Positions 9,118 through 28,797 are shown, numbered from the stretch's first letter. The stretch is DNA of 38,215 bases from Thermotogae bacterium (GCA_021161835.1 JAGGZV010000059.1:1-38215); one strand, 5' to 3'. Notes: generated from the letters alone by a model not told the origin. Program-made: numbers and translations.

Positions 9118-10467
9118 ATGCGTATCCTGCTGATAAATCCATGGATATGTGACGTTGCCGCCTACGATTTCTGGTTGAAACCCCTAGGTATACTTTACGT
9201 TGGTGCGATTCTGGAAAGATGGGGAGTGGAGGTTGAGCTTCTGGATTTTATGGATAGGCACTCCCCATTTTATGTTTCGTTTCTGGAAAACAGCGGTTTG
9301 AGGATACGTCAGGGCAGATACGGTTCGGGCAAGTTCTACCACGAGGAATTGTTCCCACCACCTCCTCAACTTCAGGGCATTCCCAGACGTTTCAAGAGAT
9401 ACGGTTGGCCGAGAAAAATAGCAGAAGAAAGGGTACGAAAGATCATTCGGAGATTCGATGCCGTTTTCATCACCTCGTGCATGACCTACTGGTATTGGGG
9501 TATCGTGGAAACGGTGAAACTCATCAAGGAGATATGTAATCTTCCAATTTTTCTGGGCGGGATTTACGTGAACCTTGTAGAATGGCATGCCAGAAGCCTG
9601 GGTAAAGAGCATGGATTCGAGGTGGTAAAGGGTGTAGGTGTAGCTCCTGTCATCGAGGCTATGAGGAAACTCACCGGATATGAATATTCAGGCGATTTTG
9701 ACTGGTTCGAGGATCTGCATCCAGCGTATCATCTTTACAACCATTCCCTGCCGTACGGTGTGCTCATGACTTCCGTAGGATGCCCGATGAGATGTACATA
9801 CTGTATAACTCCTCGACTCTGGGGTGGTTTGAAAAGCAAGAAGGCAAAAAAAGTGATATATGAGGTGGACATGCTAATCGACATGGGTGCTGAGAACATC
9901 GTGTTTTTTGACGATGCATTCTTACTGAATCCTGATGTGGATGAAGTGTTGGATCTTCTTGCAAAGTATGCTGGAAAGGTTCGCTTTTTGTTACCAAATG
10001 GTGTGCATGCAAGGTTGCTAACAATGGAATTGGCTTGTAAATTGAAGCGTGCCAATTTTGTTTTGATATATCTCGGATACGAGTCTTCAGGTTCACTCCA
10101 GTACAAAACGGGTGGAAAGGTAACGGATGAAGATCTGAAAAAAGCTGTGCACAATCTCAAGAAGGCGGGATACGGTCCAGAAGAAATAAAGGTGTACATA
10201 ATGGTGAATATGCCGGGTCAGAGGAAAGAGGATGTGGAAAAAGCCATAGAATTCTGCGAAAATCTTGATGTGGATTACTCTTTGAATGAGTATACACCTA
10301 TACCCGGCACGCTGGACTGGGTAGGACTGGTGAAAGAGGGGAAACTGGATCCTGATGTTGATCCACTGCTGCTGAACAACTCCGTACTCCCTTACTGGTG
10401 GGAGCACGGAATGGACGTGGAAACGATCGAAAAGTTGAAGAGAATCAAAAATCGTCGTTTAAGGTGA
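9118..10467 (+). CDS. Radical SAM protein with N-terminal cobalamin-binding-like fold
   Basis: The 449-residue protein starts MRILLINPW and continues with a Rossmann-like region (KPLGILYVGAILE, VELLDF), as in B12-binding radical SAM proteins, but without the DxHxxG cobalamin-His motif. The radical SAM domain has the CX3CX2C cluster site at Cys222, Cys226 and Cys229 (GCPMRCTYCITP). It is followed by FFDDAFLLNPDVDE and a C-terminal part with EYTPIPGTLDW. These are features of the Elp3/MiaB/NifB-like class known as B12-binding-domain radical SAM proteins. The substrate is unknown. ATG 9118 gives the family-typical N-terminus; TTG 9103, with AAGGA before it, is possible. The 3' end overlaps the convergent glycosidase gene by 23 bases. 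Confidence 0.82.
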   Translation: MRILLINPWICDVAAYDFWLKPLGILYVGAILERWGVEVELLDFMDRHSPFYVSFLENSGLRIRQGRYGSGKFYHEELFPPPPQLQGIPRRFKRYGWPRKIAEERVRKIIRRFDAVFITSCMTYWYWGIVETVKLIKEICNLPIFLGGIYVNLVEWHARSLGKEHGFEVVKGVGVAPVIEAMRKLTGYEYSGDFDWFEDLHPAYHLYNHSLPYGVLMTSVGCPMRCTYCITPRLWGGLKSKKAKKVIYEVDMLIDMGAENIVFFDDAFLLNPDVDEVLDLLAKYAGKVRFLLPNGVHARLLTMELACKLKRANFVLIYLGYESSGSLQYKTGGKVTDEDLKKAVHNLKKAGYGPEEIKVYIMVNMPGQRKEDVEKAIEFCENLDVDYSLNEYTPIPGTLDWVGLVKEGKLDPDVDPLLLNNSVLPYWWEHGMDVETIEKLKRIKNRRLR

Positions 10468-11719
10468 TCCATCCTCTATTTTCTTCCAGTATCGTGTCCA
10501 GCAATTCTCTGGCTTTCTCGGCGCCTGGTCCCAGCGGGTGTGCAAGGATGGCCTTTATAGCTCTCTTTTTGGATTTTTTCATGTAGGCTTCTATGGTAAG
10601 TCGTTCATACATCTTGAGGGTATGTATATAGGCGAGTGCGAACTCATCGCCTTTTCCCAGGGAGATGGGCATGGGTTTGGCTCCTTTGATGTAGCAGGGA
10701 ATTTCAAGCACGTAATCATCCGGTAGATTCGAGATGGCTCCTTCGTTTCTTACGTTCACTATGTGTACTTTCCCGTATCCACTTTTTAGATCTCTTATCA
10801 AATGAGCAGCGGCTGTAGAATAGAGGCTTCCTCCGCGCTTTGAAAGTTCATCCGGTATGTCCTGCGCATCTTCATAGATATCCAGCAGCTGCTTCTCTAT
10901 TTCCATGACCTCTTCGGCTCGTGTTTTGTTCTTCTTCTTCATCTTGTTCAAAGCACTTTCTCTGAAAAGATAATATTTTAAGTATGGATTTGGAAAGAGC
11001 CCGATGGAATCAATCAACCATCTGGGAAAATCTTCCAGTGATATGTTTGCAGGGCTAAAATCTATTCTTCCGAGTATCTTCTGGGTGTAATCTTCATCCT
11101 TCACATAGACTCTTTCCACGAAGCTCAGATGGTTCAAACCATAGTATTTCAGAAAGATATCTTCCATCTCGCATCCCACCAGATCGGCTATGGATCTGAT
11201 GATGTTGATGGGTACATTGCAAAGTCCTATGAATCTTTCGAACTTCAGGTAATTCAATACGAATTCTGTTATATGACCCGATGGATTCGTGAAGTTTATC
11301 ACCGTAGCATTCGAATGACGTGCAACGGCATCCACGTATTTCTCTATGATGGGAAAGGCTCTCAGCGCAGCAGCGAATCCTCCCATACCTGTTGTTTCCT
11401 GGCCTATGAGGTTGAATTTCAGCGGGATGGATTCATCTCTGTATCGTCCTTCAAGGAACCCCGGTCTGAACTGAAAAATAACGTATTCTGCATCCATCAA
11501 AGCGTCCGATATTTCAAAGGTTTTTTTCAACCTAATGGATACACCATATTTTTCCACCATCCTTTTAGCGAGAGTGAAGACTTTATTGAGTTTCTCGCTC
11601 GATTCCGGGATATCGTATAGGACCACTTCATCAAGCATGACGACGGAACTTATATCTATGAACCCTTTTATCAATTCCGGTGTGTAGGTACTCCCACCTC
11701 CAAGGACTGTTACCTTCAT
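10445..11719 (-). CDS. bglT: GH4 6-phospho-beta-glucosidase (BglT type)
   Basis: This 424-residue enzyme matches Thermotoga maritima BglT (TM1281 as I recall) along its length from memory. It has the NAD+ motif LGGGSTYTPELIKG at 5-18, VIFQFRPG, LIGQETTGMGGF and NATVINFTNPSGHITEF. The metal ligands are Cys167 in GLCNVPIN and His197 in YYGLNHLSF, and TKRGG-like LSKRGGSLYSTAAAHLI follows. BglT hydrolyses 6-phosphorylated beta-glucosides such as cellobiose-6-phosphate, using NAD+ and Mn2+, in the cytoplasm. It is the last gene of a three-gene operon and its ATG overlaps the stop of the kinase gene by four bases. The kinase suggests how the phosphorylated substrate is made without a phosphotransferase system. 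The stop lies inside the convergent radical SAM gene. Confidence 0.92.
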   Translation of the reverse strand: MKVTVLGGGSTYTPELIKGFIDISSVVMLDEVVLYDIPESSEKLNKVFTLAKRMVEKYGVSIRLKKTFEISDALMDAEYVIFQFRPGFLEGRYRDESIPLKFNLIGQETTGMGGFAAALRAFPIIEKYVDAVARHSNATVINFTNPSGHITEFVLNYLKFERFIGLCNVPINIIRSIADLVGCEMEDIFLKYYGLNHLSFVERVYVKDEDYTQKILGRIDFSPANISLEDFPRWLIDSIGLFPNPYLKYYLFRESALNKMKKKNKTRAEEVMEIEKQLLDIYEDAQDIPDELSKRGGSLYSTAAAHLIRDLKSGYGKVHIVNVRNEGAISNLPDDYVLEIPCYIKGAKPMPISLGKGDEFALAYIHTLKMYERLTIEAYMKKSKKRAIKAILAHPLGPGAEKARELLDTILEENRGWITLNDDF

Positions 11720-12696
11720 CCGAACACCTCCTTCTTCATCTTCAGATATTCGCTGATCAATCTGTGTATCTCATTGTCTCCTGGTTCTATGCCAGCACTT
11801 TCCATAGCCAGGAGTACCGCTCCTATGACCGGATCATGCTCGGGTATGACAATTGTGAAATCGTTGCCAAGAGCGCTTTTAAGCATTTCCACGAGTATTC
11901 TGTTCACCTTTTTGAAGAACGTTCCTTCGAGTACCAGTTTTATGGGACGAGTTTCGAACCTCAGGGTTGTGAGATGGGCCTGTACGATTTTTAAAACCTC
12001 GTCTATGATTTCCATGAATATCTTCAATGCTCCATAGTCATATTTCTGTGCTGCTTCCGAAAGCGATTCGAGAAGGGTTATCACCATTTCCCTTATTTTC
12101 TCTTCGTGTCCATCATAGTCGTATTTCATCAAATCGGTTATGCTTTCGCCCATTCTGTCTTCCACAAGCTCTTTCATCACCGTCTTGGGACTTCTGCCAT
12201 CGAGAGAGCGGACGATGGTTGATGCCACCATACCAGCAACATGGTAGGAACCTAGCCGCTCACCAAAGAAGGGCGAAAAACCGCCTATTCTGTTCAATCT
12301 TTTTCCGTCAGAAGCATAGCTTATACTCCCCGTGCCGCAGCTCACCATTATCCCAACGTCATCTATGGTTCCTGCTTTCAGAGCGATGCGCCCATCGTTG
12401 TCGAAATCGTATTTTTTCAGTCCTATGCGTTCCAGGATCGAACGTATCGTTTCTAAATCGTACGAAAAATCGGCTCCTGCCACACCAAAATACGCGAAGT
12501 CGACGGAGTCCTTATCCACCCCCACCTTTTCCAATACCTTCTCAATGGTATCGTTTATCTCTTTAAAAGCTCTTTCTACTCCAACGGTTTGATAGTTTCC
12601 ACTTCCTCCTCGAACCCAGCCCAGGATGTGACCTGTTTCATCCACAACGATAGCATCGGTTTTTGTGCCACCCACGTCCACGCCCAGTAGTTTCAC
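11716..12696 (-). CDS. BadF/BadG-type ATPase, probable sugar (N-acetylglucosamine-like) kinase
   Basis: The 326-residue product is an ASKHA-fold (actin-like) kinase of the BadF/BadG/BcrA/BcrD ATPase family, to which eukaryotic N-acetylglucosamine kinase belongs. The phosphate-1 motif is GVDVGGTKTDAIVVDE (residues 5-20), the adenosine/phosphate-2 motif is VSCGTGSISYA (about 128-138), and GGFSPFFGERLGSY follows. The benzoyl-CoA-reductase branch carries iron-sulfur cysteines that I do not see here. Lying between a ROK regulator and BglT with four-base overlaps on both sides, it most likely phosphorylates the sugar or disaccharide later cleaved by BglT. This function is inferred from context and not proven by motif. 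Confidence 0.8.
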   Translation of the reverse strand: MKLLGVDVGGTKTDAIVVDETGHILGWVRGGSGNYQTVGVERAFKEINDTIEKVLEKVGVDKDSVDFAYFGVAGADFSYDLETIRSILERIGLKKYDFDNDGRIALKAGTIDDVGIMVSCGTGSISYASDGKRLNRIGGFSPFFGERLGSYHVAGMVASTIVRSLDGRSPKTVMKELVEDRMGESITDLMKYDYDGHEEKIREMVITLLESLSEAAQKYDYGALKIFMEIIDEVLKIVQAHLTTLRFETRPIKLVLEGTFFKKVNRILVEMLKSALGNDFTIVIPEHDPVIGAVLLAMESAGIEPGDNEIHRLISEYLKMKKEVFG

Positions 12697-15874: not shown

Positions 15875-17080
15875 ATGGCTTATTTCAGGTATGAAGCCGT
15901 TGACAGAAGTGGAAAGAGAGTGACGGGTCGAGTGGAATCTTCCAGTGAGCTCGAAGCAATACGCCTGTTGACGACCCAGGGACTGACGGTGGTAAGGATC
16001 GTGGAACGGAAGAAGACGAAGAGCTTTCTGGACCTTTCAGGTATGATGCAACTTTCCCTGTCTGAACTTGCCACCTTCTCCCGTCAGCTGTCCACCATGG
16101 TTGGTGCCGGCGTCAGGATACGCGGCGCTCTGATGGTCTTGAGCGAGCAACCGGTGTTTTCAAAAAGGTTTCGAAGATACATAAGAAACGTGGTCATAGC
16201 TCTGGAACAGGGTAAGAGCTTTGCAGATGCCCTGAAGGAGCAGAAAGTTTTCGATCCTATTTTCATAAATCTCGTGAGGGCTGGTGAAACCGGCGGAGTC
16301 CTGGATGAAACTCTGGATAAGATAGCGGCATTCTATGAGGACACCTTTACGATACAGAACGAAGTTAAATCAGCGATGGCATATCCGAAGTTCATCCTGG
16401 GATTTGCGGTACTCCTCGTTTTTGTTATAACCCTTTTCATCCTTCCTAATCTCATATCGGCTTTCGGAAGCGTGCCAAAAACAGGAATGCTTGGGCTTTT
16501 GATGGGTTTAAACAGATTGCTGAAGGCTCACTGGCCTGTACTCATGGTGGTCTTTGCCGCCGGATTCGTGGGTTTTAAGGTGTTCATGAACACAAGAAGT
16601 GGCAAGAGCTTCAAGGAATTCGTGGGTATGCTAATCCCACCTGTGAGAGCTCTTCGTATGGATATGAGTATGGAAAGGTTCTGTAAAACCTTCGCAACGT
16701 TGATAGAAAGCGGTGTAGGATTAGAAGAATCCCTGAGAATGGCAGCCGATGTATCGGAGAGTAATAAGATAAAAATAGCTGTGGAAGAGGCTATAGAGGA
16801 CATAAGGAGTGGTGAAACGGTAAGCAGGGCGCTCATGAAGAAAGGTATATTTCCTCGTCTCGTTATAAGCATGATATCCACGGGGGAAGAGACAGGTAGG
16901 GTTGGGGAAGTCATGGAAAAAGTCGCCAGATTTTACAGTGAGCGTGTACGGACGGGCGTGAAAAGATTGGTTTCCATGGTCGAACCCATTATGATAGTGA
17001 TGATAGGTGGATTCATAGCTTTTCTGGCCTACACAATGTACACCGCGATTTTCAGCATGCAACGGGCCATAGGTGGTTAA
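15875..17080 (+). CDS. Type II secretion/type IV pilus inner-membrane platform protein (GspF/PilC family)
   Basis: The 401-residue protein has the standard family layout. A cytoplasmic N-terminal extension (YFRYEAVDRSGKRVTGRVES) is followed by two T2SSF domains (about 68-190 and 270-395), each with LATFSRQLSTMVGAGVRI-like and LVRAGETGGVLDETLDKIA-like motifs. Membrane helices lie near 170-192, 220-240 and 370-393. It forms the inner-membrane platform that the assembly ATPase turns to extract pilins. It is the first gene of the pil operon, preceded by CGGGGGGA. The ATPase (GspE/PilB) and prepilin peptidase are not in this window. Length and motifs are complete. Confidence 0.93.
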   Translation: MAYFRYEAVDRSGKRVTGRVESSSELEAIRLLTTQGLTVVRIVERKKTKSFLDLSGMMQLSLSELATFSRQLSTMVGAGVRIRGALMVLSEQPVFSKRFRRYIRNVVIALEQGKSFADALKEQKVFDPIFINLVRAGETGGVLDETLDKIAAFYEDTFTIQNEVKSAMAYPKFILGFAVLLVFVITLFILPNLISAFGSVPKTGMLGLLMGLNRLLKAHWPVLMVVFAAGFVGFKVFMNTRSGKSFKEFVGMLIPPVRALRMDMSMERFCKTFATLIESGVGLEESLRMAADVSESNKIKIAVEEAIEDIRSGETVSRALMKKGIFPRLVISMISTGEETGRVGEVMEKVARFYSERVRTGVKRLVSMVEPIMIVMIGGFIAFLAYTMYTAIFSMQRAIGG

Positions 17081-17081
17081 T

Positions 17082-17447
17082 ATGCTTGTTGAATTGCTCA
17101 TTTCTTTGTTGATACTTTCCATCACCCTGCTGACCGTTTTACCATGGTTTGTCGTTCTGGATGCTATTTCATCACGCATGGATGCTCTGGCTTTGGTGAG
17201 TGCCAATGATTATGCCGTAACCTCATCACGCAATGGAAGGATCGTTGAAATCCTCGAATCGATCAGTCCAAAAGGGCTGTGGCTGGAAAAGAGAATCGTT
17301 ATACCCGGTGATTTCGAGATATGGACGCCGGACTATGGAGGATTGAAATACAAGGATGGGTACTGCATCAGAGGCGGTACGGTGCGGGCAGGGAAATATG
17401 TATTCAGTGTGATGCCTGTCACAGGGGTCATTGTGAAGAAGAGGTGA
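17082..17447 (+). CDS. Pilin-like protein lacking a type III leader peptide
   Basis: The N-terminus MLVELLISLLILSITLL is almost the mature N-terminus of a type IV pilin or pseudopilin (normally FTLVELL with Glu5), but translation cannot begin far enough upstream to encode the usual leader. The frame is closed by TAG at 17070-17072, and there is no Gly for prepilin peptidase. AGGTGG sits five bases before ATG 17082. The remaining 95 residues look like a small globular domain (VIPGDFEIWTPDYGG, VRAGKYVFSVMPVTG). It is placed between GspF and PilM, where minor pilins or pseudopilins may occur. It may insert without processing or be a degenerate minor pilin. Family assignment rests on the N-terminal helix alone. 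Confidence 0.6.
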   Translation: MLVELLISLLILSITLLTVLPWFVVLDAISSRMDALALVSANDYAVTSSRNGRIVEILESISPKGLWLEKRIVIPGDFEIWTPDYGGLKYKDGYCIRGGTVRAGKYVFSVMPVTGVIVKKR

Positions 17448-17454
17448 AGAATGC

Positions 17455-18501
17455 GTGGCACTCTTTAGGCACTTCGTGGTGTCGGTGACAACGAACCAGT
17501 TCAGGGTCACCGCGATGAGATGTAAACTCAAGGGCAGAAAACTGCTACCCATAGCTTATAAAACTGTCAACCTGGAGGCAGTTTCGGATGAGCAGACGGT
17601 GGTAAAAGCGTTCAGGAGTGCTGCCAGTAAAATCTCACCTGATCCGGAAGACTACGTGGTTACGGATATACCTTTGAACGAAGTCGTGTTCAGACGGTTC
17701 GAGGTCCCTGCTATTCTCGTGGAGCAGGGTAAAGGCCGTCGTAAGAACAGTGAGGCACTGAAATTGCATGTTGCAAATGAAATGGGCATAGATCCTTCCT
17801 CTTTCCTGGTACATCCCGTGAGCGTGAGCGCTGCCGGTGATAAAAGAAGGGTTCTCATGGTGGTAGTAAAGCAGGAAACGATTTCCAGATGGGTCATGAA
17901 CATGACGACAGGTGGCTTTCCTGAACCGGATGTACTGGACGTGAGCCCGTTGAAGTGGTTTTACGTCCTGGACTGGGCAAACATGGATGTTTCTTTCATA
18001 CTTGTGATGATAGACATGGATTACACCATGGTGAGTATCTTTTTGAACAAACATCTTTACAACCTTTCCATTTCATTAGATACGAATTTGATGGCGACGC
18101 TCGGCGCCCTCGCGGATGCCTTCGGTGCCGGTGAACACGATATATTCTCCATGATGCAGGAAGGGAGAGTCGATGAAGCGGTCTTACTGGATGTTTTTTC
18201 TTCAACAATGCTTTACGAGATTTCAAGAAATGTTTCCTTTCTGGTGAGTTCTACACCTGAGATGTCCACCGGAAGACTCGAGGATATTGCACCTGTAACG
18301 TACATAATGTCCCCGTGGAACAATGTAGGTGACATGGTCATAAGAGCATTCGAACGATTCGGCGCTTTCCCATTCCCGAATATAACTCTGAAGCGTGCTC
18401 CTCTTTTATACGGTATTCCGAAAAAAGTACCCCTGGAAGCCTATGCTCTCGCTTTAAGAGGGGGTAGTGATTTTGTTAAAGGTCAACCTTTACCCGCATA
18501 A
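17455..18501 (+). CDS. pilM: PilM-like actin-fold pilus assembly protein
   Basis: This 348-residue protein sits in the PilM position of a pilM-N-O-P-Q order. It has weak ASKHA-like strands (RVTAMRCKLKG, VVTDIPLNEVVFRRFEVP, FILVMIDMDYTMVSIFLN) resembling PilM/GspL cytoplasmic domains, but classic ATP motifs are hard to see, so identification depends mainly on synteny. PilM would bind the N-terminal tail of PilN on the cytoplasmic face; the next product starts with such a tail (LLKVNLYPHK). It starts at GTG 17455, seven bases after GAGGTGA, and its end overlaps pilN by 35 bases. Confidence 0.7.
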   Translation: MALFRHFVVSVTTNQFRVTAMRCKLKGRKLLPIAYKTVNLEAVSDEQTVVKAFRSAASKISPDPEDYVVTDIPLNEVVFRRFEVPAILVEQGKGRRKNSEALKLHVANEMGIDPSSFLVHPVSVSAAGDKRRVLMVVVKQETISRWVMNMTTGGFPEPDVLDVSPLKWFYVLDWANMDVSFILVMIDMDYTMVSIFLNKHLYNLSISLDTNLMATLGALADAFGAGEHDIFSMMQEGRVDEAVLLDVFSSTMLYEISRNVSFLVSSTPEMSTGRLEDIAPVTYIMSPWNNVGDMVIRAFERFGAFPFPNITLKRAPLLYGIPKKVPLEAYALALRGGSDFVKGQPLPA

Positions 18502-19045
18502 AATCAAGAGAATAAAATTGAAAACTTTTTTGATACTGCTTCTGGCACTCTCGCTGGCTGCCTTCTCCATCATATACTCATACTCGTTTTTCCTGTATTT
18601 GAAACAGATGAGTGTTGCCGCAAGATACCTTGCAGCCATATCGAAAGCTGGCATTGTTATAACGGGCAACCTTGAAAAAGACATAAGTAGTATAAAAACA
18701 CGGATCCAAGAGTATCAAAGACGGAGCAGGGTAATGACGTTGAGGATAAACAAAATGATCGATTTTTTGAGAGCGGAATATCCCGAACATCTGTTCTTTG
18801 GATTTCTTGCGGATATAACATCGAGTTCAGAAAGCGATCGACGTATCGTGAAAAACGTGATGTACGATGGAAAAAGTATGAAATTAAAACTTTGGGAGGT
18901 TACCAGCGACAGATCACAACTCCTTAAAGACCTCGAATTTTTGACTGAAAAGTATCAGCTGGCAGTAAAATCAAGGCGTTACTCCGAATATCACCTGGGA
19001 TCTCTGAAAATATCCGAGCTGTCTCTGGAGGTAGTGAAAAGATGA
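18467..19045 (+). CDS. pilN: PilN-like pilus assembly protein
   Basis: The 192-residue product starts with the short motif KVNLYPHKIKR. PilN proteins carry an IN(L/F)LP-type sequence there to dock into PilM. A single membrane helix follows (about residues 19-43), then a periplasmic part with a coiled-coil-prone stretch (ISSIKTRIQEYQRRS) and a ferredoxin-like domain. This is the PilN topology. It begins within pilM and overlaps pilO by ATGA. The start may be GTG 18467 or TTG 18473; the GGGGG upstream is better spaced for the latter. Confidence 0.78.
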   Translation: MILLKVNLYPHKIKRIKLKTFLILLLALSLAAFSIIYSYSFFLYLKQMSVAARYLAAISKAGIVITGNLEKDISSIKTRIQEYQRRSRVMTLRINKMIDFLRAEYPEHLFFGFLADITSSSESDRRIVKNVMYDGKSMKLKLWEVTSDRSQLLKDLEFLTEKYQLAVKSRRYSEYHLGSLKISELSLEVVKR

Positions 19046-19485
19046 TAGAAAAGATTCTATTGCGAAGAAAGCTCAGCATGCTGATGGCACTGCTGATATT
19101 CGCAACCATTTTGTTTATTGGTCTTTACCCTAGGGTGACAAGAGAAACGAGATTAATAGGAGAATTCGGAGAGGTGGTAAGACAGCTGGAGAGAGAGGTG
19201 AATGAATACGACCGTTTGAAGAGTATCTACGATAGACTCAAGGAATTCGTTGAACTGAACACCCGGTTGCCGGAAGAGGCGGTAAAACCTGATAGGGAAA
19301 TAGATTTTGTGTTCAAAGGTGAGTGGGAGAAGATGAACAGGCTGATCTCTGAACTCGTGAATAGCAGAAAGCACAGAGTGGAGTTACTCGTTATAGAAAA
19401 TGATCTTTCACTGCCATTCATGTTGATAACCACCGAAAATGAGGTTACCATGAAGTTGAAATTCTCGGAGATGATGGAAAGATGA
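19042..19485 (+). CDS. pilO: PilO-like pilus assembly protein
   Basis: This is a 147-residue bitopic protein with a membrane helix at about 12-30. A coiled-coil stretch with heptad-like spacing follows (EVVRQLEREVNEYDRLKSI), then a small C-terminal alpha/beta domain. PilO pairs with PilN in the periplasm as part of the alignment complex linking platform and secretin. It is short for PilO (often near 200 residues), but its order and topology fit. It overlaps pilN and pilP by four bases on each side. Confidence 0.68.
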   Translation: MIEKILLRRKLSMLMALLIFATILFIGLYPRVTRETRLIGEFGEVVRQLEREVNEYDRLKSIYDRLKEFVELNTRLPEEAVKPDREIDFVFKGEWEKMNRLISELVNSRKHRVELLVIENDLSLPFMLITTENEVTMKLKFSEMMER

Positions 19486-19955
19486 GCAAAAAAGTGAAAA
19501 TCTTCCTGCTGGTTGCCGTTGGCGTTTGGATGGTATTCCTGCTGGTATACATTTACCCGAAGTTGTTCGCTTCCACTCCTTCTGTTTCAAGCTCATCTGG
19601 CCGACCAACGGCAAGAAAAGTGTCGAGTTCAAAAGCATGGAATGAGGAAGAAATAGAGAAGCTTCTCACGATGGCCACACCGGTGGAATTGAGGATCAAC
19701 TTCGATCCTGTCAGGTTGGGTGGGGAAACGCAGGTTAACAGGATCTTGCTGGAAACAAAGAACGAGCTTCCTGCTTACAAATTTCTGGGATTTTCAAAGC
19801 GCGGCGATGAGGTGGTAGGTTTCTTCGAAAAAGAGGGTAAAACCGTTGAAGTACCAGTAGGTGGTAGAATAGATAATTATATACTGTATCATGTTTCGGA
19901 GCTTGGTGCTCTGCTTTTTCACCTGGATGAACACAAGATGTATGTGGTGAGATGA
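19482..19955 (+). CDS. pilP: PilP-like periplasmic pilus assembly protein
   Basis: The 157-residue product has an N-terminal hydrophobic anchor (about 6-28) without a lipobox Cys, then a Ser-rich linker (STPSVSSSSGRPTARKVSSS). A C-terminal beta domain follows, with NRILLETKNELPAYKFLGFSK and VEVPVGGRIDNYIL. The pattern fits PilP/GspC homology-region domains that bind the secretin. Canonical PilP is a lipoprotein, so this version is instead anchored by a helix. Position between pilO and pilQ, overlapping both frames by four bases, is the main evidence. Confidence 0.65.
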   Translation: MSKKVKIFLLVAVGVWMVFLLVYIYPKLFASTPSVSSSSGRPTARKVSSSKAWNEEEIEKLLTMATPVELRINFDPVRLGGETQVNRILLETKNELPAYKFLGFSKRGDEVVGFFEKEGKTVEVPVGGRIDNYILYHVSELGALLFHLDEHKMYVVR

Positions 19956-19984: not shown

Positions 19985-22900
19985 ATGAAGAGGCTTTTCA
20001 TCGTGATTGTGGCAATATTAATGGTGGGAAATGTTTTTGCTGTCAGTTTTTTGCGCGTGGAGCCGTTGATACGCGAAAACGATGTGGGGGTAAAACTCGT
20101 ATTCGATGGAAAGGTTGAGAAGTGGAGACTCGGATCGAATCCTTCGAAAACTGTGTACACCCTCCAGATCGATGCTGAAGGAAAAGGTAATTTTGTACTT
20201 CCCATACAGGCAGGCCCTCTGGAAGCTGTATCGCTGATAGCTGGTGAAGGCCAGATATACGTCAATTTCTTTCACATAGTTCCCGTGCGCGAACCAACGA
20301 TCTCGGCTGATGGGAATACATTGAATGTAACCTTCAAGCGTGCAGCCCGTTTTTCAGAAGAGGAATACGTGTTCACGGGAGAAGAATGGCTTCTTAAGGA
20401 CATTCTTAAGTACATAATGGGAAAAAGTTATTTGAATCTAAACTATGTGATATCCGAGAAGCTGGAAACGGAGAAAGTTAAACTCACTATGCGACTGGCT
20501 GGAAAAGGTGCGGACGATGTATTCAGGGATATACTTCTTGCCAAAAGCGGCAGAATATCATATGCTTATTTACCGGATGGAACTCTGTACCTGGGAACAC
20601 CCGATGAAGTCAAGGAGCGGATAGATGAATTCTGGATGACCTACAGCGGAGTCAGGTTGACCAAAGCTACCATAGAGGAATTGCGTTCCAAATTGCCTTC
20701 AAACGTTCTTCTGGAATACTTCGGTGATAAGAGTGTACTTTTCGTATACGGTGATCTACAATCTCATCTTAAAATAGCCAATCTGCTTTCGGTGGTATCT
20801 CCGGTTGCGGAAATTACATATGACTTTTATCCACGCCTGGCTTCAGCAGGTGACAGAGAAAGCATAGCGAAACGACTGGAATCCCTTTTGAAAAATATAA
20901 GAGGTGACGAAACAGGAATACAGATAATCCCCGATCTGCGGTATTCCATCATCGTGGAAGTTGGAGAAGCGAAGATATGGGTACCTGAGAAGTACAGACA
21001 GATGCTCTTGAACTTCCTCGCCAGCTTCGAGTCCAATCTTCTTTCTGAAAAAGAAGAACCACCCGCGAGGGTCCTGAGAAGTCTGAGGATAGAAAACGAC
21101 TCTTTGAGATCCGATATGTCGAAAGTGCTTGATCTATTGGGTATAACAGCTTACAAAGAGGTGGAACACGGGTTGGAGATACTGTGTACACCGAACGAAT
21201 ATGAAGAAATCGTTGAAATATTTAAGGCTCTTAAAGAAAGATATGAACCCATTGTTACCGAAGTGCACAGAATTTCCAGCTATATAGATGCGGATATGGC
21301 CAGAGTACTGTTCGAATCGTTGAAATATACCGGTATAGTTTCTCTTGAACCTATCATTCTCAAAGATAGAAGCATGACAAACGTCATAAGAATAACAGGT
21401 AAAAAGCAACAAATAGAAGAGGCGTTGAAGGGTGTTGAGGAAATACTGGAGTTGCTTGGTGAAGAGAGTGTAAGGAAGCTGTTCAAAGTACCGGACGGTT
21501 CCGCTGAAGAGATGGTTGAAAAGATTTCTCGTGCGTATCCATACCTGGGGGTCGAAAGGGTCGGAGATATCATAATCATATCTGGAGAAGAGAAAGCTGT
21601 TAATGAAGCGTCGCAATTGCTGGAGAGTTTGAAACCTGTAGTGGTGGAACAGGTAGAAGAAATACTACCCATACCGCGCTGGGCGTTGGAAATGGGTGTA
21701 GTGGATACGTTGGAGAACCTGTTTCCTGATGTAGAGCTTAAAGGTTATGATAAGCTTGAGATTCTGAGCGTTAGAGCGAGTAAGAATGAGTATGAGAGAT
21801 TCAAAAAGAGATACGATGAAGTGATGAAAATAGCCAGGGAAAAACATGAGGAGCTGGAAAAGGAAACACTTTCCGCCACCCCGGCTGTGAGGGTTGCAAC
21901 GAACGAATCGACGGTCATAAGGATAGTACCGGTGGTTCCTCAGTTGGATGTAGAGAAGATAAAAGTTCTGGCTTCATTCGAGGGGCTGGACGTGCAGATT
22001 GAAGTGATACAACCATTCGGTTATTTCATAAAGGGTGCGGAGTCCGGCGTGGAAAAATTGATATCCTATATAGAGGGTTGGCGGACAGGTATACAGAAAA
22101 GGACCTTTGAAACTTTCAAACTCAAGGAGGGTATCGATCCATCCAAACTCGATGCTCTTTTCGAGCAGCTAGGGGTGGATGTCAACGTAATGAAAGTAGG
22201 GGATGTTACACTGGTCGTTGGTATGCGTGATGATGTGAAAAAAGCTGGTAAGATCGTGGATGAGCTTGATCTTAGAGTTTCCACCATCACGAGTGTTGCT
22301 ACTTCTGTCGGAGTGAAATTGCGGGAAAAGCCCGAGAGAATCTCCCGAATCTTCAGGGTGTTCCACATCGATCCTACGGTTGATATAGATTCTCTCAAGA
22401 TGTTGATGGGTAGGCTTGGATATGAAATAGATCTCATGAGAATAGGCGAAAAAACGGTTTTTGTTGGTGATCGTAAGGCTCTTGAAGTTTTCCAGGGTAT
22501 AATCGATGACATGCAGCTGTACGTCGAGGAGCAAACCATTCAAGCGGTTTCTACACGGACTACCGAACCTTCCAGAATTTTCAGGGTTCTGGATCTCGAT
22601 GGGCTGGATGTGGAAGAAGTGGCCAACGTGGTGAAGACGTTCTATCCAGATGTGATGGTTTCTCCGTTGGTCAAGTTGAAATTGCTGATCGTTCTTGGAC
22701 CGAAAGTGGATGTGGAAGAGGTAACCAAGCTGGTGGAGACCCTGAAAAGCGTTGCAAAGACCAGAGAAGAGACTTCCATGGTGTCCACCGATTTGAAGCT
22801 TGAACTTTCTGAAGAAACGGAGCATGCTTCCCCCGCGATTTCTGAGGTTGAGAATGAGCTACCATTTGAGTTTTCGGTTAATCCCGATGGCAGCTTTTCT

Positions 22901-24031
22901 ATAGATGTAGCTTCACAACCTCTTGGACTGGTGATCGAAGGTGTTGCTGAAAGATTAGGGAAATCTGTGGCTTTGGTGGATTATCCTGAGGAGAAAGTAG
23001 ATCTCAAGGCAAAGAGCATGACCTGGGAAGGGTTCCTGAATTTCGTGGAAGAGTTCTACGGATACTCTGTTGTGAGCAGGGGTTCTTTGACCATCATTCA
23101 AAAATCCCCGGTGGCGTCCACCGATACAACCGTTGGGATGAAGAAATACGTGTTCAGAGTGAGCCACAACATAGATGAAATAGCGAAACTTGTGGAATTC
23201 TATGGAGGCAGAGTTTATGAGGATAAGGTCAACGAACTTCTCATAGTTACAGGTATATCCGAGGAAACGCGTGAAGTGCTTGAGAGCCTACTTGAAAACC
23301 TGTCAAGACCCAAACCTGTTGTGAAGATATCTGCTGAAATAATCGATAAATCCATTCTCGAAGGTCTTGATCTTTCGCTTTCCTCACTCATCGACCTGGG
23401 ACACGCCGGTTTGACCCTCAGCAGTGAAGGCAACATTGCCGAACTCACATTGAGCAGTACGGTTATAGACATACTCGATTACAGGGAGCTCATGGAAGCC
23501 ATAGGCTCCAAACTTCGGTTTCAAACCACTTTGAGTCTTGACAAGTCCAAGTCAGGAGGGGATGTCCTCTCAAAACCTCAGATAACAACCGTTAGCGGTG
23601 AAGAAGCCAGAATGTTTGTGGGGCAAAAGATACCTTACATTCAGGGATACGATGAGGATGGTAAACCTATAATAGCGTATTCCGAACCTGGTATAGAGCT
23701 CAAGATAACGCCGATAGTCAAAAAAGATGGCACCATTTCTCTCGATATCTTCGTCAAGGTAAGTGATGTTGAATACTACAATCCGACACCCGATTTGACC
23801 TATCCCATAGAAAAAACCAGACAGGCAGAAACGAAAGTGATCGTGACGGAGGATCAGGCGGTGGTCATAGGAGGATTGGTGCGTACGTTTGAAAATGTTC
23901 AGGAATCCAAACTTCCTTTCTTGGGTGATCTGCCGTTCATAGGCCAGTTCTTCAGGAGTTATCAGAAAACACAGGAAAAATCTGATCTTTTGATATTCAT
24001 AACGGCGGAGGTGGTGCAACCTGGTTCGTGA
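19985..24031 (+). CDS. pilQ: Giant PilQ-type secretin with about ten tandem N-domain modules
   Basis: PilQ forms the outer-membrane ring through which pili or substrates pass. This one has 1348 residues, about twice the common length. In order: signal peptide (MKRLFIVIVAILMVGNVFA), an AMIN-like beta domain (about 20-115), and a first STN/N0 domain (about 124-206). Roughly ten related 60-90-residue modules follow (starting near 217, 278, 361, 425, 496, 557, 645, 706, 786 and 862). Then come a second STN domain (about 962-1040), one more module and the secretin barrel (about 1085-1348), with GGLVRTFENVQ and PFLGDLPFIGQFF. The modules have a beta-alpha-beta-beta-alpha look, as in ring-building secretin N domains. 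I chose ATG 19985 because AAGGGGTGA precedes it and it gives a normal signal peptide. ATG 19952, overlapping pilP, would add 11 residues. Confidence 0.93.
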   Translation: MKRLFIVIVAILMVGNVFAVSFLRVEPLIRENDVGVKLVFDGKVEKWRLGSNPSKTVYTLQIDAEGKGNFVLPIQAGPLEAVSLIAGEGQIYVNFFHIVPVREPTISADGNTLNVTFKRAARFSEEEYVFTGEEWLLKDILKYIMGKSYLNLNYVISEKLETEKVKLTMRLAGKGADDVFRDILLAKSGRISYAYLPDGTLYLGTPDEVKERIDEFWMTYSGVRLTKATIEELRSKLPSNVLLEYFGDKSVLFVYGDLQSHLKIANLLSVVSPVAEITYDFYPRLASAGDRESIAKRLESLLKNIRGDETGIQIIPDLRYSIIVEVGEAKIWVPEKYRQMLLNFLASFESNLLSEKEEPPARVLRSLRIENDSLRSDMSKVLDLLGITAYKEVEHGLEILCTPNEYEEIVEIFKALKERYEPIVTEVHRISSYIDADMARVLFESLKYTGIVSLEPIILKDRSMTNVIRITGKKQQIEEALKGVEEILELLGEESVRKLFKVPDGSAEEMVEKISRAYPYLGVERVGDIIIISGEEKAVNEASQLLESLKPVVVEQVEEILPIPRWALEMGVVDTLENLFPDVELKGYDKLEILSVRASKNEYERFKKRYDEVMKIAREKHEELEKETLSATPAVRVATNESTVIRIVPVVPQLDVEKIKVLASFEGLDVQIEVIQPFGYFIKGAESGVEKLISYIEGWRTGIQKRTFETFKLKEGIDPSKLDALFEQLGVDVNVMKVGDVTLVVGMRDDVKKAGKIVDELDLRVSTITSVATSVGVKLREKPERISRIFRVFHIDPTVDIDSLKMLMGRLGYEIDLMRIGEKTVFVGDRKALEVFQGIIDDMQLYVEEQTIQAVSTRTTEPSRIFRVLDLDGLDVEEVANVVKTFYPDVMVSPLVKLKLLIVLGPKVDVEEVTKLVETLKSVAKTREETSMVSTDLKLELSEETEHASPAISEVENELPFEFSVNPDGSFSIDVASQPLGLVIEGVAERLGKSVALVDYPEEKVDLKAKSMTWEGFLNFVEEFYGYSVVSRGSLTIIQKSPVASTDTTVGMKKYVFRVSHNIDEIAKLVEFYGGRVYEDKVNELLIVTGISEETREVLESLLENLSRPKPVVKISAEIIDKSILEGLDLSLSSLIDLGHAGLTLSSEGNIAELTLSSTVIDILDYRELMEAIGSKLRFQTTLSLDKSKSGGDVLSKPQITTVSGEEARMFVGQKIPYIQGYDEDGKPIIAYSEPGIELKITPIVKKDGTISLDIFVKVSDVEYYNPTPDLTYPIEKTRQAETKVIVTEDQAVVIGGLVRTFENVQESKLPFLGDLPFIGQFFRSYQKTQEKSDLLIFITAEVVQPGS

Positions 24032-25363: not shown

Positions 25364-26851
25364 GTGGCAGATTCCATACGTCAACACAGGATCCAGGAGA
25401 TCGAGGAACTGAGGAAGCTGGGTATTGATCCTTATCCCTACAGGTATGAACGTACACATTCCTCACGGGATGCTCACAACGCTTTTGATGACGTGCTCAA
25501 AGCGGGTGAGGTTCTCGAAAACGAAAAGGTCAGCATTGCGGGCAGGGTCATGGCCTTAAGAAAGCATGGAAAATCCATTTTTTTTGTGCTTCAGGATGCC
25601 CATGGTTCCATACAGGCCTACATAAGAAAAAACGTGGTTGGCGAAGATAAATTTCGGATATTCGACAGGTATGTGAACATAGGTGATCATGTTGGCGTGC
25701 AGGGTTTTCCTTTCAAGAGCAAAACAGGTGAACTGACCATCTTCACAGAGAATTTCAAGATATTGTGTAAATCTCTCAGAACTCTGCCTGAAAAGTGGCA
25801 TGGTCTTAAAGACAAGGAGATAATATACCGTCAACGCTATCTCGACCTGATTTCCAACCGTGAAAGTTTCGAGCGTTTCATCCTGCGCTCCAAAGTGATA
25901 AGGTTTATACGCGAATTTCTCGATGCCCGAGGTTTCATCGAAGTGGAAACTCCCATTCTTCATAGTGTTACCGGTGGTGCGAATGCCCGTCCCTTCATCA
26001 CGCACATAAACGTCTTTGATATGGACCTGTATCTACGCATAGCACCGGAGCTTCATCTAAAGAGGCTTATAGTTGGTGGTTTTGAGAAGGTGTACGAACT
26101 GGGAAAGAATTTCAGAAACGAAGGTATATCCTATAAACACAATCCGGAATTCACCTCTGTGGAGATATATCAGGCATACGCCGATTACACTGACATGATG
26201 GAGTTAACCGAGGAAATGATAGTTTCACTGGTGCAGGAAATTTTTGGAACGCTCAAAGTAAAATATCAGAATGTTGAGCTGGATTTTACACCCCCATGGC
26301 GCAGAATCAGGATGCGGGATTTCATCATGGAACGTCTGAACGTGGATATACTGGAGGACCCTGATGAAAAGTTGATGCAGGTTCTGGAGGATAACGGTGT
26401 GGAAGTGGAATTCAGGGACAGAGGACATATGATTGAAAAGTTGTGGGATCTGGTGGAGGACGAGCTCACGGCCCCGACCTTTTTGCTGGATCACCCCGTA
26501 GAAATTTCTCCCCTGGCAAAACGCCACAGGGAGGATCCCAGAGTAACGGAGAGATTCGAGCTGATAATATTTGGAAGAGAAATAGCCAATGCGTTCAGCG
26601 AGCTGAACGATCCACTGGATCAGTTTGAACGCTTCAAAAAACAGCAGGCTCTCAGGGAGGCGGGCGATGAAGAAGCACAGATGTTCGACAGGGACTTCCT
26701 GCGTGCACTCGAGTATGGTATGCCACCCACTGGAGGCCTGGGAATAGGTATCGATCGACTGGTGATGATACTAACCGATTCTCAAAGCATAAGGGATGTT
26801 ATCCTCTTTCCACTTGTGAGACCGGAATCCGGGGAAGTGGTGGGAGAATGA
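25364..26851 (+). CDS. lysS: Lysyl-tRNA synthetase, class II
   Basis: The 495-residue enzyme charges tRNA-Lys. An N-terminal OB-fold anticodon-binding domain (about 50-160: [23 protein letters not shown]) precedes the class II catalytic core. Motif 1 is around [18 protein letters not shown], motif 2 reads [18 protein letters not shown] and motif 3 [24 protein letters not shown] and [12 protein letters not shown] are lysine-enzyme specific. It starts at GTG 25364 behind GGGAGTGA, and its stop overlaps the following membrane-protein gene by ATGA. The protein looks complete and normal. Confidence 0.97.
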
Positions 26852-28797
26852 AGAAACTTTCGCTCATTATGATCATCATGATCTTTGTTACATTGAACGC
26901 ATCGGATTTCGGCAAGGTGGTGGATATTTTCGAAGATTACATAAAAGATTACAAACGGGCTGATTCGCGGCTTCCAGAGGTTGTGAAAGTCAAAGAGGAG
27001 TTAAGGAATCTGGCGGTCTACAGGTTGTACAAAATTCAGATGGTGGGTAGTCTGGAGAAGAGGGAACTTTCACTGACCACAAGTGATTTCATGACGAAAC
27101 TCTACGATGTCTACGCACCAGAGGATCTACAGAAAAGGATAGCTTTTTCAGCTTTTCTTGCCTACCTTGCCAGTGAACTTTCAGGGCATCGTACCACGTT
27201 GAGTTCCATCATGAAACTTCCTGCCTTCTCTAAATCCTTTGATCTCTACCGTCAGCTGGTGAGGAAAAAATTTTACAATCTGTTCATTCATGACGTTGCC
27301 TATCTTCTGGGAATAGTGGAAACACCTTACATTGAAGGATTGCAGGGCAAAAAAGTTGCTGACCTTGATATGGGTGGAGTGCCACTCCCTGAAGTGCGCA
27401 GTCTTTCTTTCGAAGATCCCCTGGGTTTTATAAATTCCGACTTTCTGAAGTTGATGGTACAAAGGGCGAAGGAGCTGAAGGAGAGAATATCCCAGCGTGA
27501 GATAGAACCTCGCAGGATACTTGCGGAGTTGAGACGTGTGAGTTTGAGTCTCATAAATGAGAGGACAGGGCAGATGCAAAATGAAATTGCCAATCAGCTG
27601 GTGAGCGTGATACCAAAGAGAATCAATCTGTGGTGGATAAAATGGTTCATATACGCAGGATTGATTGTGCTCGTGGTGAAGAAGAGGAAACTTTACAGGA
27701 TCCTCATTCCGTCAATGCTCACTTTCGAGGGCGTTTACATTCTGGTTTTCATGGACCCCTTCTTCTCCCGTTTGGATGCTTACATATACGGGGTGAGCGT
27801 GTTACCTGTATTCATCTTTTCTGTGTTACTTTTCCTACCCAGAATCTTCAAAGAATTCGATTGGGTACACTCCATTTTGATCGCAACGATCTTCGTGGTA
27901 TTGCTTGGTTTCTTTGTGCCTTTATATGATGGTGCTGTTGAGTTACGAATGGATGCCTTTCCAACTTTCCACGATTCCGTGTACTACGGAATGTTGAAAG
28001 AAGATGTGTTTTTGGGAGACGTAGCGCAGGTGAAACGGGACATGGTAAGTTTGAGAAGTACTGTAGCCAAAGAGGTGAACCAAACACGGGGAGTCGTTAG
28101 AAAAACCGAAAAGTTTTTCAACGATTTGATCGAAGAAGGTGCGGTGAAGAGTGTGAGAAAAATAGGTACAACCTACAGACTTTTGCTGCCCACTTTCAGT
28201 GAGTTTTACGATACCATTAATGCCCAGAATTACAGAAACAGGTTCGCATCCTTTGCGAATTTCCTTTCTTCTTTCAATGTAGAGTCCCGGTCACGCCTGA
28301 AGGAAGTGCGGAGAACCTATGCAAAACTTGAAGATGCGTTCAGCAAGATCATACGGTATGGTGATGAAAAGTTCAGAACCGATCTATGGAATTACGTGGA
28401 CAGAAATCTCAGAAAGCAGGCTTACACAGCTTCTTATGGGAAAATGCTGATGGAGGAAATGGAAGAATTGCGAAATGTGGAGCCGGAACCTGCAAAGATA
28501 AGGGTGTTCCAGATACGCCATGGTATCATAATGTTGCTGGGACTCATGGTGGGAACTTCTTTCCTCGTTATTTTGAAAAGTCGAATGAGTGTGATCTTTT
28601 ACGTTGTTTCACTGATGGCAGCGCTGTGGAGTATGTTTACATGGGAGCATCTGAGAATTTTTGTGCAGTTCGGGATACCGTTACTGGAAGTTAAAGTGAG
28701 TGAAGGTTACGTGTGGTTTTTCCCTGTTATGGTGATGATTGTATCCATATTTACGATAGTCACATCATTATTGTTGAGGAGGAGGTTGACAGTATGA
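26848..28797 (+). CDS. Large membrane protein of unknown function
   Basis: I do not recognise this 649-residue protein. An N-terminal signal-like helix ([18 protein letters not shown]) is followed by about 245 mainly helical extracytoplasmic residues. A block of four membrane segments lies at about 265-375 ([44 protein letters not shown]). About 180 charged helical residues follow (with [17 protein letters not shown]), and three membrane segments end the protein. It overlaps lysS upstream and the nucleoside-binding-protein gene downstream by four bases each. That couples its translation to the transporter and suggests a shared task, but nothing in the sequence names one. No catalytic motif is visible. 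Confidence 0.7.

Follow-up and report, generated by a model that had tools for sequence, protein, structure and literature searches.

A giant PilQ-like secretin of Thermotogota with two STN domains and a long series of predicted ring modules

A stretch of 38,215 nucleotides from a Thermotogota bacterium (GCA_021161835.1 JAGGZV010000059.1:1-38215, referred to as a whole as the window) encodes a secretin of 1348 aa, in which a canonical core is preceded by a long extension carrying a further STN/N0 domain and ten predicted N-type modules. Secretin length across the phylum is correlated with the length of the SLH proteins that hold the toga away from the cell. The product is likely to be the outer-membrane secretin of a type IVa pilus; it would form a tall tower of stacked rings that spans the toga gap, with a length tuned by module duplication.

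The secretin gene and its domains

The open reading frame runs from 19985 to 24031 on the plus strand. AAGGGG, resembling a Shine-Dalgarno sequence, lies just 5′ of the ATG at 19985; an alternative in-frame ATG at 19952 overlaps the upstream gene. Residues 1-20 resemble a signal peptide. Pfam Secretin (PF00263) matched residues 1188-1345 with E 6e-41 (140 bits, against a curated cut-off of 27.5), placing the product in the secretin superfamily and bearing out the identity and extent given to it in an earlier note on this DNA. Pfam Secretin_N matched residues 867-920 just below its cut-off (E 3.5e-6), and PDB sequence matches were obtained to 6ve2, 6w6m, 5wq8, 4av2 and 3jc8. The NCBIfam models for PilQ (TIGR02515, 122 bits, cut-off 284) and GspD (TIGR02517, 134 bits, cut-off 351) both scored below cut-off, GspD still giving the best NCBIfam score. 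The protein is PilQ-like and lies outside the curated TIGR02515 family.

The source genome is a 1.83 Mb Thermotogota MAG, ~86% complete, and this was the sole secretin found in it. A viral collection gave one weak match only. An assembly artefact or a fusion of genes was rejected, because a full-length homologue (1357 aa, 49% identical) is encoded in another genome and the window gene contains no module-length DNA repeats. The lack of such repeats also indicates that its modules are old.

AlphaFold2 was given residues 21-1180 and a ten-sequence alignment (mean pLDDT 63, pTM 0.26) and, in a separate run, residues 200-662 (pLDDT 70, pTM 0.50, most modules 65-88). From the N- to the C-terminus the longer model consists of a beta-rich domain, an STN-like domain, ten modules, a second STN-like domain and an eleventh module, followed by the barrel. 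The features of the gene, all on the plus strand, are as follows.

19985-24031, plus strand: giant secretin gene, 1348 aa (ORF, Pfam, signal peptide-like residues 1-20)
20045-20338, plus strand: beta-strand-rich N-terminal domain, residues 21-118 (AlphaFold2; AMIN-like by position)
20369-20596, plus strand: first STN/N0 domain, residues 129-204 (model, PilQ N0 profile matches, Pfam STN in homologues)
20639-20788, plus strand: predicted ring module 1, residues 219-268 (AlphaFold2, low confidence)
20804-21046, plus strand: predicted ring module 2, residues 274-354 (both AlphaFold2 models)
21077-21241, plus strand: predicted ring module 3, residues 365-419 (both models)
21254-21457, plus strand: predicted ring module 4, residues 424-491 (both models)
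21470-21628, plus strand: predicted ring module 5, residues 496-548 (both models; module HMM 3e-7)
21650-21871, plus strand: predicted ring module 6, residues 556-629 (both models)
21911-22090, plus strand: predicted ring module 7, residues 643-702 (AlphaFold2; module HMM 8.5e-6)
22100-22264, plus strand: predicted ring module 8, residues 706-760 (AlphaFold2; module HMM 4e-14)
22346-22510, plus strand: predicted ring module 9, residues 788-842 (AlphaFold2; module HMM 9.7e-10)
22574-22780, plus strand: predicted ring module 10, residues 864-932 (AlphaFold2; Pfam Secretin_N; module HMM only 0.045)
22868-23104, plus strand: second STN/N0 domain, residues 962-1040 (AlphaFold2; 4ar0 match; hhalign to first STN)
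23144-23302, plus strand: predicted ring module 11, residues 1054-1106, adjoining the barrel (AlphaFold2)
23318-24028, plus strand: secretin barrel/gate domain, Pfam part residues 1188-1345 (Pfam, NCBIfam and PDB matches)

Pfam STN did not match the window secretin itself, and profiles of homologues were therefore used for these domains together with the longer model, which has STN-like topology at residues 129-204 and 962-1040. A profile of the second STN, built from ten homologues, matched the N0 domain of Neisseria meningitidis PilQ (4ar0) with E 1.9e-9, as well as other PilQs. The profile of the first STN matched PilQ N0 entries with E 4e-4 to 1e-3; its stronger matches, to 'Cake' and 'Bagel' repeat proteins, cover only the short motif PDGTLYIG. 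The two profiles matched each other (hhalign, probability 94). Among the ten homologues Pfam STN was found in six at the first position and in four at the second. In the L080 secretin it exceeded the cut-off at the first position (E 5e-9). By eye, the secretins at L080:9845-13471 and L081:147-2408 have at least three tandem STN-like domains before the barrel. Pfam AMIN had no match in the window secretin, including its beta-rich residues 21-118.

The modules share a predicted beta-alpha-beta-beta-alpha (strand-helix-strand-strand-helix) topology; ten lie between the STN domains (residues 219-932) and one after the second. Modules 2-6 were reproduced by the model of residues 200-662. The best Foldseek matches of both models were secretin N-domains (PilQ, GspD, EscC/InvG and DR_0774), with low whole-chain TM-scores, which a beads-on-a-string arrangement would be expected to give. 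Five window modules were matched by an HMM built from modules of the relatives; the E-value was 8.5e-6 to 4e-14 for four and only 0.045 for the fifth. Confidence is lowest for module 1 (219-268). In the longer model some modules are separated by linkers of 20-30 residues predicted with low confidence, and its low pTM means that the predictions bear on the order of the domains, not on their stacking.

Models and profiles together thus place two STN/N0 domains and 11 N-type modules in the periplasmic part before the barrel. The earlier note had put STN domains near residues 124-206 and at about 962-1040 with about ten modules between them, and structure prediction agrees with it on each point: the middle region is predicted to be made of N-domain-type modules, and the second STN-like segment to have the STN fold. 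The last ~390 residues form the canonical core (STN/N0, N module, barrel), which is preceded by an extension made up of the beta domain, the first STN/N0 and ten N modules.

Secretin length and the toga spacer

PF00263 matched in 96 of 103 Thermotogota genomes. Most of the large secretins have 940-1620 aa, and those of family f7, which we take to be the Petrotogaceae, are shorter (625-910 aa). That the window protein is an isolated oddity was therefore rejected, comparable secretins being the norm of the phylum. On this point the earlier note needs amending: within Thermotogota the window protein is not unusual, and some secretins reach 4560 aa. The median was 473 aa among 61 secretins of other phyla, picked by similarity, and only one of these exceeded 800 aa (L110:7532-10567, Bacillota, 1012 aa). 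Its N-terminal part, by eye, repeats BON-like domains unlike the window modules, an independent way of lengthening a secretin. A further secretin, of only ~370-430 aa, is encoded in many Thermotogota genomes; the genome of the window, which is incomplete, yielded none.

The longest proteins are single intact secretin ORFs in the Kosmotogaceae-like family f9 (genomes G042, G044, G046, G050 and G051):

L148:3709-17391: Kosmotogaceae-like secretin, 4560 aa
L149:3654-15398: Kosmotogaceae-like secretin, 3914 aa
L150:3588-15278: Kosmotogaceae-like secretin, 3896 aa
L151:3280-14946: Kosmotogaceae-like secretin, 3888 aa
L153:4798-12693: Kosmotogaceae-like secretin, 2631 aa

The module HMM detected 25-51 modules in these proteins, with a median spacing of 67-68 residues; two of the proteins also have Pfam matches to Secretin_N and to the secretin domain at the C-terminus. 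Two module pairs in G044 are 100% identical and one pair in G042 is 93% identical; the arrays are therefore still being duplicated or converted. No published description of the 2631-4560 aa secretins was found in the mainly open-access literature searched. 'Mesotoga' and 'secretin' occurred together in no open-access paper found, an absence that is only suggestive. In a further genome (G014, L037:6575-14430) a giant secretin locus is split into a 1372-aa ORF, a secretin-module ORF on the minus strand and an 883-aa ORF, with exact 245-bp direct repeats (10280-10524 and 11507-11751) flanking an inverted GC-rich block. Contigs of the sibling genomes G033 and G043 break in the same region, and the arrangement is either a misassembly or a real inversion.

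In Thermotoga the toga is kept ~50 nm off the cell by OmpA1, which has an SLH domain and a 316-aa coil (PMC3387000). SLH proteins with a hydrophobic C-terminus were collected from 39 genomes and compared with the length of the secretin before the barrel, so that protein lengths served as a stand-in for the toga gap. Mesotoga SLH proteins of 675 aa lacking a hydrophobic C-terminus, and one truncated secretin (G055), were left out. The two lengths were strongly correlated (Spearman 0.88 for the 39 genomes, 0.87 for 27 genus means and 0.84 without Kosmotogaceae). The correlation was retained in independent contrasts on a tree of barrel domains (r 0.73, p 1.4e-7) and in within-family permutation (observed value reached in 0 of 20000, p < 1e-4), and was also present in f7 and f10 taken separately. 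Among the neighbouring pilus proteins, PilN and PilO lengths had no significant link to spacer length; for PilP the link was negative, and for PilM weakly positive (0.53). On log-log axes spacer length rose with secretin length at a slope of only 0.3-0.4, so that the relation is not proportional.

Estimated spacer coils were 31-35 nm in two f7 genomes with short secretins and 46.7 nm in the putative T. maritima genome; the published figure for OmpA1 is ~50 nm (PMC3387000). For the window's genome the estimate was 59.6 nm, and Kosmotogaceae gave 52-74 nm. The correlation with the SLH spacer proteins supports the proposal of the earlier note that a long stack goes with a wide toga gap, in 27 genera, but module number is no simple ruler. 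Taking ~3 nm per small module, an estimate from Thermus PilQ, which measures ~35 nm with its six rings and its barrel (PMC4463427, PMC5745081), the Kosmotogaceae stacks would come to roughly 80 to >150 nm against their coils of 52-74 nm, and would therefore be 2-3 times too long for their spacers if each module were a ring. Either some of these modules are not single-file rings, or the machine is placed in ballooned regions of the toga.

The N-domain modules might generally not form one ring each in single file, and be arranged instead as double walls, folded-back chains or flexible beads, giving a much shorter tower. The two- to three-fold excess in Kosmotogaceae speaks for this, as do the low-confidence linkers between some window modules and the low pTM. 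We think such an arrangement unlikely, because in Thermus PilQ and GspD each domain of this kind makes its own ring (PMC5745081), and no coiled-coil or membrane element between the modules hints at another arrangement. Equally improbable, in our judgement, is neutral tandem duplication, with cell size, lineage or another common cause, and not functional fit, behind the match to the spacer. The identical module pairs do indicate ongoing duplication, and the slope is far from proportional, but the correlation survives independent contrasts and within-family permutation, holds in f7 and f10, and has no counterpart in PilN and PilO. Our preferred reading remains a single-file stack fitted to the toga gap. 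In its most general form, in which Thermotogota secretins are evolvable rulers with one ring per module and a stack matching the gap, it is offered tentatively; Mesotoga would then have ~50 rings and a tower of >100 nm, the longest known.

Operon context and the proposed tower

A pilC-pilM-N-O-P-Q-like operon ends with the secretin gene. The same gene order, with nearly constant sizes, was found in the window and in the putative T. maritima, K. olearia and Mesotoga genomes.

15875-17080, plus strand: PilC/GspF-like platform protein (T2SSF, E 7.5e-60)
17073-17447, plus strand: small pilin/GspH-like protein (by position; no Pfam family match)
17455-18501, plus strand: PilM-like (TIGR01175, E 0.0016, below cut-off; conserved order)
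18467-19045, plus strand: PilN-like (order, size, single N-terminal membrane segment; no convincing Pfam match)
19042-19485, plus strand: PilO-like (order and size; no convincing Pfam match)
19482-19955, plus strand: PilP/GspC-HR-like (order, size, C-terminal beta-rich region; no convincing Pfam match)

The pilM-N-O-P-Q assignment fits by order and size, PilM alone having a model match, a weak one. Elsewhere in the genome are genes for type IV pilins, for PilT (471 bits, over the NCBIfam cut-off of 319) and for a PilB homologue (566 bits, under the cut-off of 676) that carries a c-di-GMP domain of the MshE type. Homologues of both PilB and PilT, as expected alongside a PilQ, are thus present, that of PilB below cut-off. 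TM0088 and its relatives are listed as pilQ in the naturally competent genus Thermotoga (PMC5637354). From the operon order, PilT, PilB, the pilins and this listing (PMC5637354), the window protein is most likely a type IV pilus secretin. A role in type II secretion is very unlikely: GspD gave the best NCBIfam score (134 bits, cut-off 351), the PilC homologue scores as GspF and one pilin is GspG-like, but PilT well over cut-off and a PilM-N-O-P-like operon are features of type IV pili, Thermotoga is naturally competent, the locus is entered as pilQ for T. maritima and its relatives (PMC5637354), and the second STN matches PilQ N0 best. Further downstream, a 649-aa ORF without a Pfam match (26848-28797) lies between lysS-like and Bmp-family genes.

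For a type IVa pilus secretin of this kind the following assembly can be proposed. A dozen or more subunits would assemble as in other secretins, each N-type domain adding a ring, to form a periplasmic tower of ~13 rings. At ~3 nm per small module, with base and barrel added, the tower would be near 50 nm, fitting its spacer. At the cell body the tower would dock, through its N-terminal beta domain and its first STN, on PilP and the PilMNO platform or on the cell wall, and the C-terminal core would sit in the distant outer membrane of the toga. PilB would drive the pilus and PilT retract it, with the tower guiding it across the gap. Duplication of modules in tandem would allow the height of the tower to follow, over evolution, the width of the gap that the SLH coiled-coil spacer imposes. 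The physical tower we infer from predicted domains; the ring per module, the docking of the N-terminus on PilP or the cell wall, the guided channel and duplication as the means of changing length are likewise inferred.

Comparison with known systems

How a trans-envelope machine is fitted to the distance between membranes is a long-standing question, studied mainly in flagellar rods, lipoproteins and T3SS needles. In the present case a single protein ranges, within one phylum, from 625 to 4560 residues by means of tandem ring modules, and its length tracks that of an independent spacer protein. Envelope matching thereby becomes directly testable, and the very tall towers predicted would be visible to tomography.

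The nearest named relatives are the T. maritima TM0088 family, annotated pilQ, with the same operon order and a secretin of 1285 aa in the putative T. maritima genome. The open-access search found TM0088 only in the genome paper of Thermotoga RQ7, which lists it as pilQ and takes up neither its length nor its module stack (PMC5637354); no structural description of it was found in the papers searched. The PilQ of Thermus thermophilus (757 aa, N0-N5, C13) likewise belongs to a thermophile with a wide periplasm, and has beta-alpha-beta-beta-alpha rings under the barrel and PilMNO partners (PMC5745081, PMC4463427). It is ~35 nm long in a periplasm of ~70 nm, a length that its authors suggested to be adaptive (PMC4463427, PMC5745081); a fit between a long PilQ and a wide periplasm has thus been proposed before (PMC4463427). 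Thermus PilQ has six rings and one N0; in the window secretin there are two N0/STN domains, together with 11 modules. Canonical PilQ (N. meningitidis, P. aeruginosa, V. cholerae and M. xanthus) and GspD share with it the C-terminal core of STN/N0, N module and barrel. The solved PilQ chains that it matched have 571-901 aa and one N0, in contrast to its 1348 aa and two. The Kosmotogaceae giants have the same operon and the same type of module, recognised by one HMM, and differ in scale, with 2631-4560 aa and 25-51 detected modules compared with 11 in the window secretin.
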